Below, one piece after another: positions 31,843-33,853 of a DNA stretch of 64,000 nt (position 1 is the first letter of the stretch; the number at the start of each line of letters is the position of its first letter). A program made the translations under genes and the position numbers. The stretch comes from Halobaculum sp. CBA1158 (GTDB taxonomy: Archaea > Halobacteriota > Halobacteria > Halobacteriales > Haloferacaceae), in the NCBI RefSeq assembly GCF_021431925.1, contig NZ_CP090371.1, forward strand, positions 1,984,001 to 2,048,000. The letters run 5' to 3'. The notes beneath the pieces were generated by a model, which was given only the letters and a program-made list of their open reading frames with translations, was not told the origin of the DNA and made no database searches.

Positions 31843-32871
31843 CTACAGCTCCAGTCCGCGGATCGCGACGCCCTCACCCTCCCCAACCGTGCCGATCACT
31901 CTCCCATCGGTCTCGGCCGCCAGCGACTCGGCGTCCTCGGGTGCGAGCGCGGCGACGAAGCCGGTGCCCATGTTGAAGGTGCGGTGCATTTCCTCGTCGG
32001 CGACGTTGCCCTCGCGCTGTACGAACTCGAAGACGGGCTGGACCGGCCACGGGTCGGTCACCTCGTAGCGGTGGTCACCGAGGCGCTCCAGGTTGGTCCA
32101 CCCGCCGCCGGTGAGGTGGGCCGCGCCGCGGACGCCGTGCTCGCGCATCGGGCCGAGCAGGTCCGCGTATATTCGGGTTGGCTCCAAGAGCGCCTCGCCG
32201 ACAGTGTCGTAGCCGTCGAACGGACAGGGATCGGTGTACTCGTGGTCGCGGGTCGCCGCCTCGCGAGCGAGGGTGAGCCCGTTCGAGTGGATGCCCGAGG
32301 AGGCCCAGCCGACGAGCACGTCGCCCGGTTCGGCGCGGCCGTCGAAGACGGCGTCCTTGGCCGCGAGGCCGGCGCAGGTGCCCGCCAGGTCGAGCCCCTT
32401 GATCACCTCGGGCATCACGGCCGTCTCGCCGCCGACGAGTTCGACGCCGGCGCGCTCGGCTCCCTCGCGCAGGCCCGCGCCGACCTGCTCGGAGAACGTC
32501 TCGTCGGGCTCGTCGACCGCGAGGTAGTCGACGAACGCGACCGGGTCGACGCCGGCGGCGACGAGGTCGTTCGCGTTCATCGCGATGCAGTCGATGCCGA
32601 CCGTCGAGTAGTCGCCGAGCGCCTCGGCGACGATGAGCTTCGTCCCGACGCCGTCGGTCGCCAGCGCGAGATAGCGGTCGCCGATGTCGAGCAGGCCGGC
32701 GTAGTCGCTCCCCCCGGCTCCGGCGTCGCCGACCGCGGACACGAGCGCCGCGGTCGCCGCCTCGCTGGCGTCGATGTCGACGCCGGCGTCGGCGTAGGTG
32801 AGTTCCGGTTCGCTGTCCTCCTCCCCGTCGGTCGCGTCCGCGCCGTCTCCGCGCGCGGCGTCGTCTGCCAT
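31843..32871 (-). CDS. purM: Phosphoribosylformylglycinamidine cyclo-ligase (AIR synthetase)
   Basis: Fifth step of de novo purine synthesis: ATP-dependent ring closure of FGAM to AIR. The 342 residues show LTYADAGVDIDA near the start, DGVGTKL (ATP-binding loop), STVGIDCIAMNANDLVAAG, LVGGETA and SGIHSNG, all typical of PurM. The first 25 residues are an acidic extension. The gene is convergent with the preceding membrane protein, 8 nt apart, and stands alone without other pur genes. Confidence 0.95.
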   Translation of the reverse strand: MADDAARGDGADATDGEEDSEPELTYADAGVDIDASEAATAALVSAVGDAGAGGSDYAGLLDIGDRYLALATDGVGTKLIVAEALGDYSTVGIDCIAMNANDLVAAGVDPVAFVDYLAVDEPDETFSEQVGAGLREGAERAGVELVGGETAVMPEVIKGLDLAGTCAGLAAKDAVFDGRAEPGDVLVGWASSGIHSNGLTLAREAATRDHEYTDPCPFDGYDTVGEALLEPTRIYADLLGPMREHGVRGAAHLTGGGWTNLERLGDHRYEVTDPWPVQPVFEFVQREGNVADEEMHRTFNMGTGFVAALAPEDAESLAAETDGRVIGTVGEGEGVAIRGLEL

Positions 32872-32912
32872 GGTCGAGAGGGGTTCGGGCGGGAGCAAAA
32901 GCGCACCGACAG

Positions 32913-33092
32913 CGAGGCACGAACGGAGTGAGTGCCTCGGCGAACGGCGGCGAGCTCGTGTGCGAGCCGCCCGCAAAGACAGCGCGGCCGAGCGGAGCGA
33001 GGCCGCGGTCCGCGGCGGAGCGGTCCTGTGCCGCTCCGCCCACGAATCCAGCGAGGTGCGAGCGGAGCGAGGTCGACCGAAGGGAGACCTCG
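32913..33092. repeat. Array of stem-loops with a repeated 11-nt loop
   Basis: The 298-nt gap between purM and the M50 gene holds at least five inverted repeats. Stems are CGAGGCAC (32913-32939), GGCGGC (32946-32971), CGCGGCC (32983-33007), GGCGGAGCGG (33014-33040) and CGAGGTC (33068-33092). Three have an 11-nt loop of one pattern: GAACGGAGTGA, GAGCGGAGCGA and GACCGAAGGGA. A fourth copy of GAGCGGAGCGA (33060-33070) is unpaired. No gene is seen in the gap. Stem sequences differ while loops are kept, so the loop seems the conserved part. Confidence 0.75.
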
Positions 33093-33169
33093 ATGTGAAC
33101 GGCGTGATCCGTGAGCGAGGCGAGCGCCTCTGTGCGAACGGGGCGCGTGAGACGGGCGAACCGACCGCC

Positions 33170-33853
33170 TCAGAACAGCACGAACAGCGCGAACCCGACG
33201 GCCAGCGCGGCGCTCGGGAGGAACGTCGCGAGCCACACCGGCGTCGACCACTCGCGCACGGTCGCGCCGTCGAGCGGGCCGAAGGGAACGAGGTTGAACG
33301 CCGCGAGCAGGAGGTTCACCGCGACGCCGTAGGTCCCGACGGTCAACAGGACCGACGAGAACCCCGCGAGTCCGACAAGCAGCAGCGGCGCGAACACGGC
33401 CGCGAGCACGAGGTTCACGAGCGGACCGGCCAGCGCGATGAGGCCGTTCTCGCGTTTCGTGATCCGGCCGACGTGGTGGACGGCCCCGGGCGCAGCGAAG
33501 AGGAAGCCCGCGGTCGCGGCGACGACCGCGAGGAACAGCATGCCGTAGTCCGCCCGAAACGCCGCGCGCTGGCCGAACCGGACCGCGACGACCTTGTGCG
33601 CGAGTTCGTGCAGCAGGAACGCGACGCCCGCGGTCAGTAGGCTCACGAGGAGCAGGCCGCCGACCGACCCGAGCGCGCCGGCGGTGAGCGACCGGATCAC
33701 CGTCGTTCCGCCCCCGGCGAAGAAGACGGTGAACGCGACCGACAGCGCGACCCACGCGAGCAGGAAGTCGCGAAGCTCGCGCCCCGAGAAGGCGAGGCCG
33801 GCGACCGCGAGGGCGGACCCGCGGGAAGCGTCGCCGCCGGATCGGCGGCTCAC
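33170..33853 (-). CDS. M50-family (site-2 type) membrane metalloprotease
   Basis: A 227-residue integral membrane protein with five or six helices. The zinc motif is HELAH (His82, Glu83, His86) inside a helix, and the third ligand is in NLVPFGPLDG, the N-x-x-P-x-x-x-LDG signature of M50 proteases. Such proteases cut membrane-bound substrates within the bilayer; substrate is unknown. The GTG start at 33853 overlaps the TGA of the TraB-family gene by 4 nt, implying a coupled operon. A paralogue of this type is common in haloarchaea. Confidence 0.82.
   Translation of the reverse strand: MSRRSGGDASRGSALAVAGLAFSGRELRDFLLAWVALSVAFTVFFAGGGTTVIRSLTAGALGSVGGLLLVSLLTAGVAFLLHELAHKVVAVRFGQRAAFRADYGMLFLAVVAATAGFLFAAPGAVHHVGRITKRENGLIALAGPLVNLVLAAVFAPLLLVGLAGFSSVLLTVGTYGVAVNLLLAAFNLVPFGPLDGATVREWSTPVWLATFLPSAALAVGFALFVLF

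Follow-up and report, generated by a model that had tools for sequence, protein, structure and literature searches.

The window analysed here, a 64-kb stretch of DNA from Halobaculum sp. CBA1158, contains a short intergenic gap between two genes of the minus strand, and this gap is filled with hairpins. The features of the locus are given below. N and N' denote positions 3 and 9 of an 11-nt loop pattern, GANCGNAGNGA, and R1 is a covariance model of 25 positions and 9 pairs.

31843..32871, minus strand: purM-like gene (AIR synthase domains; Pfam PF00586, PF02769)
32872-33169: intergenic gap of 298 nt between the purM-like and M50-like genes, both on the minus strand
32896..32902, minus strand: TATA-like GCTTTTGC region, ~27 nt upstream of the purM start codon; congeners keep CAAAAG(C)
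32913..32939, plus strand: hairpin A of unit 1, 8-bp stem CGAGGCAC/GTGCCTCG, loop GAACGGAGTGA, N/N' = A/T
32946..32971, plus strand: hairpin B of unit 1, GGCGGC ... GCCGCC, inner flanks again GA ... GA (from sequence and fold)
32983..33007, plus strand: hairpin A of unit 2, 7-bp stem CGCGGCC/GGCCGCG, loop GAGCGGAGCGA, N/N' = G/C, 42.2 bits (R1)
33014..33040, plus strand: hairpin B of unit 2, an inverted repeat with a 10-bp stem GGCGGAGCGG/CCGCTCCGCC and a 7-nt loop
33049..33071, plus strand: hairpin A of unit 3, a direct repeat with a 1-bp stem; left arm and loop kept, right arm broken by the next unit
33068..33092, plus strand: hairpin A of unit 4, 7-bp stem CGAGGTC/GACCTCG, loop GACCGAAGGGA, N/N' = C/G, 41.4 bits (R1)
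33093..33169, plus strand: degenerate array tail, probably a decayed unit, including the palindrome GAGGCGAGCGCCTC at 33117-33130
33170..33853, minus strand: peptidase M50-like gene (Pfam PF02163 at 28.7 bits, cut-off 27.2)

On the plus strand, the loop pattern occurs at 32921, 32990, 33060 and 33075 with stems of 8, 7, 1 and 7 pairs, respectively, and the three remaining matches in the 64-kb window have stems of 0, 0 and 2 pairs. When the plus strand was folded as RNA, all three stem-bearing hairpins took the form stem / GA / 2 bp / 3-nt loop / 2 bp / GA / stem. The fold was equalled by 2 of 200 dinucleotide shuffles as RNA (z -2.5) and by 5 of 200 as DNA (z -2.4). Pattern positions, stems and folding thus agree with the original prediction of a hairpin array in this gap with three stem-borne loops. 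A fourth loop, at 33060, had been described as unpaired; it is indeed barely paired (1 bp), but it is the loop of a further hairpin A, in which the following unit breaks up the right arm. Unit 4 appears to have inserted inside this hairpin: at 33049-33092, one unit seems to lie within another hairpin A, on its loop side, with GGAG before it and CG behind it. Within the window, hairpin A recurs at ~70 nt together with hairpin B, in direct tandem. No Rfam family matched the window at the gathering score, and both an Rfam family and a tRNA were rejected as identities for the hairpins.

The hairpin A of unit 1 begins 41 nt upstream of the purM start. In eight of ten genomes of the same genus, the first hairpin lies directly behind a conserved CAAAAG...CCGACAG, 41-68 nt from the matched purM start (the match starts differ), and two genomes are without a hairpin. 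The outer six pairs of the purM-gap hairpin are complete in all nine genomes that have it, the window genome included, though pairs 3 and 6 vary. Copy number and inner sequence of the units vary between species, and their orientation relative to purM is identical in all genomes with them. One congener (G006) carries four hairpins upstream of purM, exactly 70 nt apart. Judging by its position, the GCTTTTGC region probably acts as the purM promoter. As this conserved TATA-like box stands between the array and purM, the array would lie outside a leaderless purM transcript. A purM leader or riboswitch was rejected for this reason and because the two congeners mentioned above lack the array.

Cap, stem and unit of the element

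The loop has the form GA-N-C-GNA-G-N'-GA, and positions 3 and 9 read A/T, G/C and C/G in the window hairpins. Because these positions are complementary, the loop can be resolved into tandem G·A, the two pairs N-N' and C-G, and a GNA triloop, and we take the opposed GA/GA to form sheared pairs. The sequence GCGNAGC is an unusually stable DNA mini-hairpin, and the element bears the same cap (C-GNA-G plus one further pair). The mini-hairpin is a physical motif and not a genomic family, whereas in the element tandem GA/GA and a conserved stem enclose the cap. This stem has 7-8 bp, and most stems fit CGnGGnC/GnCCnCG with compensating changes. The original prediction had held that the loop is conserved but the stem is not; this part finds no support, since the stem has a consensus and compensatory changes of its own.

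A gap-free alignment of 13 hairpins gave CGnGGnC-GAnCGnAGnGA-GnCCnCG. As these hairpins had been picked for pairing, the fair test is the pattern without a pairing rule. Among the matches listed, all three variable pairs were complementary in 68 of 72 haloarchaeal matches (61 loci) compared with 3 of 19 bacterial matches (19 loci), where loci were assigned by record titles and the 38 of 118 pattern loci without a title were left out. Of 44 distinct haloarchaeal 25-mers, 43 were complementary at pair 3-23, 41 at pair 6-20 and 43 at pair 10-16; shuffles reached at most 28, 23 and 25, respectively. Stem pairing could instead persist through gene conversion between copies. Three bacterial loci (L260, L269 and L315; by record title Rhodalgimonas, Rhodobacter and Dehalococcoidia) have fully paired hairpins with the same loop, which may be convergent.

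The unit comprises hairpin A (CGnGGnC - GA NC GNA GN' GA - GnCCnCG) and, in many copies, a hairpin B behind it with the same kind of cap. Hairpin B, recognised by a simple pattern only, was found after no more than 98 of 215 hairpins A (83 long, 15 short). Neighbouring hairpins A are spaced 43-85 nt apart, most commonly 61, and the unit is mostly 54-75 nt long. At C1:1867558-1868002 of the window genome, eight 60-bp tandem units with identical hairpins apparently reflect a recent expansion. A second palindromic family, AAATCGCG..CGCGATTT and then GAGCTCACGAGACC-GNN-GGTCTCGTG, is often located 3' of units (L001 at ~18.8 kb, L035 at ~15.06 kb, L128 and the purM gap of L043), and at L010 (~10.9-11.1 kb) units alternate with copies of a tRNA 3'-end-like sequence (GTGGTTCAACTCCGCCCGAGCCCA).

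If the loop merely reflected chance or the biased composition of GC-rich intergenic DNA, it should be as frequent outside stems as inside. We ran this test, proposed in the original prediction, on 864 kb of the window genome (40 systematic 20-kb stretches and the window; coding fraction 0.84 by our own gene calls). The sample contained 62 loop matches, 35 of them intergenic though intergenic DNA makes up ~16%. Perfect stems of at least 4 pairs were present at 13 of 26 intergenic loops with complementary N/N', at 1 of 8 coding loops with complementary N/N', and at none of 28 loops in which N/N' was non-complementary. Therefore, the loop is also found outside stems, yet the subset in which N and N' pair is strongly stem-bound, as expected of a structured cap and not of composition bias. 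Only two of 11 permuted patterns had intergenic stems, one with 1 and the other with 5, and the latter pattern overlaps the real motif whenever the N of GNA is G. In the same sample, 10 of 23 intergenic hairpins with a perfect stem of at least 7 pairs and an 11-nt loop bear the motif. When no loop condition was imposed, CGnGGnC/GnCCnCG stems carried the loop in 7 of 7 intergenic and 0 of 5 coding cases (each hairpin printed on both strands). Chance does find some support in the bare 11-mer, which has 147/152 matches against 92/83 for a reversed control, so that many bare matches are background. For the stem-bearing copies, however, chance is refuted by the stem and pairing results and the permuted controls; together with the shuffles and the bacterial matches without pairing, these lead us to dismiss it as extremely improbable.

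The window genome has at least 52 R1 matches at E<=0.1, a lower bound obtained by scoring 150 of 12588 candidates. At E<=0.01, at least one match was present in 98 of 116 Halobacteria genomes, representing 41 of 46 genera, and 18 of the 116 had none. In a draw of 148 genomes from the phylum, 15 matched R1 at E<=0.001, all in the order or family of the window genome; no match fell outside the class, and each listed genome beyond the order was negative (113 negatives not individually listed). Four viral contigs carry the letter pattern and none of them has all three pairs, on which ground a phage or virus origin was rejected.

In-frame copies in protein genes

Copies inside genes follow a strict rule of strand and frame. 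In 80 stretches from other genomes, taken in rank order (one contig-edge match dropped beforehand; G000, G083 and G101 left out, the latter two sampled apart), all 17 copies in called genes were sense and in one frame. In an independent sample of 61 haloarchaeal loci, the 22 coding copies among the matches listed were likewise all sense and in the same frame; matches <300 nt from a locus end were left out of this sample (8 cases), as they were from the placement counts below. Over all sets, with duplicates removed, 41 of 41 distinct perfect-stem copies within called genes were sense. The frame was determined for 39 coding copies and was the same in all 39, reading (E/D)R(S/R)E, often followed by ASERASGE. 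Among ten scanned host proteins, four were named at curated cut-offs, i.e. IleRS (L159), LeuRS (L154), MutS (L208) and an ATP-dependent DNA helicase (L144), and the other six had weaker names or none. The sense bias is not due to stop codons, since in 42 coding units the three antisense frames are open as well (42, 41 and 42 units). Their mean net charges are +3.1, +0.8 and +6.3, compared with -2.4 for the used frame, and the intolerance of an acidic proteome to basic peptides may account for the bias. Six loosely paired matches (5 of 7 pairs) in genes of the window genome, one of them antisense and their frames mixed, break the rule and look like chance.

At orthologous codons, units are present in some genomes and absent from their relatives. 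An asparaginase-like gene contains the unit in 2 of 13 genomes of one genus (probably Halobacterium), a gain of 54 nt or 18 codons, and the empty genomes have DKFG-xx-DPxGR or similar joined by short variable linkers. For IleRS, one of eight genomes has a full 54-nt insert, another a partial insert of 33 nt, and six are without. A third gene (L157) has an 81-nt insert, and in G133 the two halves of the empty gene abut. The mapped gains (54, 54, 81 and 33 nt) are all multiples of 3 and preserve the frame. This speaks against an archaeal BHB intron, which is excised from the RNA and could therefore have any length. At the L157 codon site of G108, a different and longer hairpin insertion is found in G026 (locus L390), marking an insertion hot spot. 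No target duplication was evident by eye between filled and empty sites. TGA as a required target was rejected, because internal coding insertions without TGA are seen by eye.

In genes, the pattern reads GAN CGN AGN GAn with each N at a third position, as would be expected if the loop were only a protein motif whose N are the wobble positions of E/D-R-S/R-E codons. As a whole explanation, such coding constraint is refuted by the copies between genes, which are the majority and keep the N/N' pairing. Within genes, it is further opposed by the two filled asparaginase-like copies, whose loops differ by three synonymous changes that swap an N/N' pair of G-C for A-T. We therefore regard coding constraint alone as very unlikely.

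Intergenic placement and polarity

Placement was counted once per gap and strand using our own gene caller, with duplicates removed by flank sequence (as also for the spacings above). In gaps between tandem genes, arrays were sense in 42 cases and antisense in 23 (p 0.025); a further 32 lay in convergent and 39 in divergent gaps. The 5' end of the array was located 0-8 nt behind a stop codon in 31 of 75 cases, whereas its 3' end (36 nt beyond hairpin A) was -36 to 8 nt from a stop codon in 1 of 55 (Fisher p 3e-8 versus the 5' end). Start codons gave a similar picture: in 26 of 62 cases the 5' end was 30-60 nt upstream of one, and in 8 of 83 the 3' end lay <=60 nt from one (Fisher p 8e-6). That units lie mostly after genes, raised in the original prediction as a point to test, is supported in part: 5' ends are anchored right behind stop codons, and copies also occur before and inside genes. 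The adjoining stop codons were TGA in 21 cases, TAG in 12 and TAA in 2, which is near background. Isolated copies (n=40) were anchored on their 5' side in 21 cases and on their 3' side in 4, and polar decay of arrays is therefore not the whole reason for the polarity.

In both anchored classes, the RNA-forming strand is the strand transcribed away from the neighbouring gene. A TTTT was present within 150 nt of the stop codon in 5 of 30 genes with a stop-adjacent element compared with 80 of 371 genes without. In the absence of T-run enrichment, a classic U-run intrinsic terminator is not favoured and was rejected. Insertion alone does not account for the strong 5' polarity.

Proposed spread of the element and its relation to known families

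With dispersal, compensatory pairing, presence or absence at orthologous codons, tandem copies and a single acidic frame all observed, the best reading is a mobile REP/RPE-like family that would spread without a detectable dedicated transposase. We consider it probable that the cluster upstream of purM consists of direct tandem copies of a short palindromic insertion element (54-81 nt) common to Halobacteria and moved in trans, some copies of which may be kept as RNA boundaries. Mobility is deduced here from comparing species. In this mechanism, the unit would spread as a folded single DNA strand, the purine-rich GA/GNA cap being present on one strand only; the likeness of the cap to the stable mini-hairpin GCGNAGC supports folding of the DNA strand. 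A capped strand that can be recognised only once it is single and folded would suit HUH-type single-stranded DNA transposition. The unit would be cut and pasted by an enzyme provided in trans, for which an IS200/IS605-type (Y1) transposase is the most plausible candidate. Above the cut-off of NF047646 (REP transposase), 0 of 116 genomes of the class and 1 of 14 control genomes had a match, and no unit was present in four Y1 loci of the window genome (~3.3 kb each) or in 30 further Y1 loci. Linkage to a RAYT was rejected on these results, which led us to propose a non-autonomous element. Insertions would survive between genes, or in genes only where an acidic flexible linker results. Less firmly, some intergenic copies may be kept because outward-transcribed hairpins end or process RNA, where outward transcription would either run on beyond a stop codon or start divergently at a promoter, as upstream of purM.

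Selection on RNA might instead be primary. The hairpins would then be functional boundary elements, i.e. terminators or 3'-end processing signals selected where transcription leaves genes in either direction, with spread secondary, an explanation that we hold to be possible rather than probable. It is consistent with the 5' anchoring at stop codons and behind promoters, isolated copies included, and with the sense bias in tandem gaps. In agreement, excerpts of a study of Haloferax volcanii report hairpins upstream of 503 transcript ends and one coding-region hairpin that ended 59% of transcripts (PMC7237163). Against it, a copy in an essential gene would cleave the very mRNA that contains it, no enrichment of T-runs is seen behind copies, 39 arrays lie in divergent gaps, and 18 of the 116 genomes have no match at E<=0.01. 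A neutral by-product is a further alternative: a stable GNA-capped DNA hairpin could seed template switching that perfects stems, without any transposition. This would explain why the loop is shared and the stems are perfectly paired, and it gains from the resemblance of the cap to the DNA mini-hairpin. We nevertheless find it improbable, since the sequence and length of the stem are themselves conserved (CGnGGnC), the gains at orthologous codons are precise (54-81 nt), and there is a second hairpin in a regular unit of mostly 54-75 nt.

For a mobile family moved in trans, we hypothesise that a boundary against outward transcription explains the polarity. The hairpins near transcript ends described in part for Haloferax volcanii (PMC7237163) make a boundary role reasonable, and the lack of T-run enrichment keeps it a hypothesis.

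Bacterial REP sequences (GTAG/CGTC families), as partly described in PMC3733652, share with the element short palindromes with stems of 5-13 bp near gene ends, a left flank that can give a TAG stop, and some copies in ORFs; the paper mentions 'archaea' in its reference list only. The element differs in its two-hairpin direct tandem in place of inverted dimers, in having no conserved GTAG and no RAYT over the cut-off, in its presence in most Halobacteria, and in not avoiding divergent gaps. A terminal GTAG was found in 4 of 171 'first' units and TAG in 19, with G at position -1 in 89% and positions -4 to -2 mixed. Inverted dimers do not predominate, as unit words in the flanking gap stood at 2.7 per 100 nt on the same strand versus 0.4-0.6, with a background of 0.6. 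As many dispersed, short and mainly extragenic palindromes, the copies are REP-like in the broad sense, but without a GTAG terminus, RAYT association or inverted dimers we do not file them as GTAG REP. Their in-frame insertion into unrelated protein genes that are empty in relatives makes them RPE-like. Rickettsia palindromic elements (RPE) are likewise palindromic DNA in frame inside unrelated proteins (in part from PMC3733652); the element differs in host domain, sequence and loop, and in its one fixed sense frame and acidic peptide. PARCEL, according to excerpts of PMC2996958, are also tandem coding repeats with dyad symmetry that spread within genomes. Their 25-residue domains are amphipathic and stand in ORFs without known function, whereas the insert here is hydrophilic and acidic and lies in housekeeping enzymes, and most copies of the element are intergenic. 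PATE, SMR and MITE of Haloquadratum walsbyi are small transposase-free mobile repeats of a haloarchaeon, too, and PATEs have palindromes and cause no target duplication (PMC3119063, in part). They are set apart by description: SMR-A has ~110 bp and HqIRS41 80 bp, and the excerpts of that report mention neither in-frame protein insertions nor this loop (PMC3119063).

In titles and abstract starts of the literature on haloarchaeal hairpins, REP, MITE and in-frame palindromes (subscription papers and supplements lying outside this search), the element is not described, and an exact-sequence literature search gave nothing on archaea by title or abstract. The element is of a known kind, the REP/RPE-like palindromic elements, and is new in being archaeal and class-wide, with two-hairpin units in direct tandem, a single acidic frame, a polar placement and no RAYT detected.

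In-frame invasion of proteins by palindromic DNA is chiefly known from Rickettsia. A counterpart that spans a whole class of genetically tractable archaea, with an acidic frame suited to halophile proteins, offers a natural experiment on how a proteome tames mobile DNA. Its polarity at stop codons and promoters allows a cheap and concrete test of mobile hairpins as archaeal transcription boundaries. More speculatively, and we think doubtfully, a class-wide mobile hairpin whose GA/GNA cap is read by an enzyme on one DNA strand could be both a protein-remodelling element that supplies acidic linkers to essential enzymes and a genome boundary with a direction, its 5' end standing at stop codons and behind promoters, where transcription leaves genes. 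If so, a single mobile family would supply 3'-end signals as well as signals against divergent transcription. For the enzymes of Halobacteria, an acidic insertion may be the remnant of such an element rather than an adaptation to salt.
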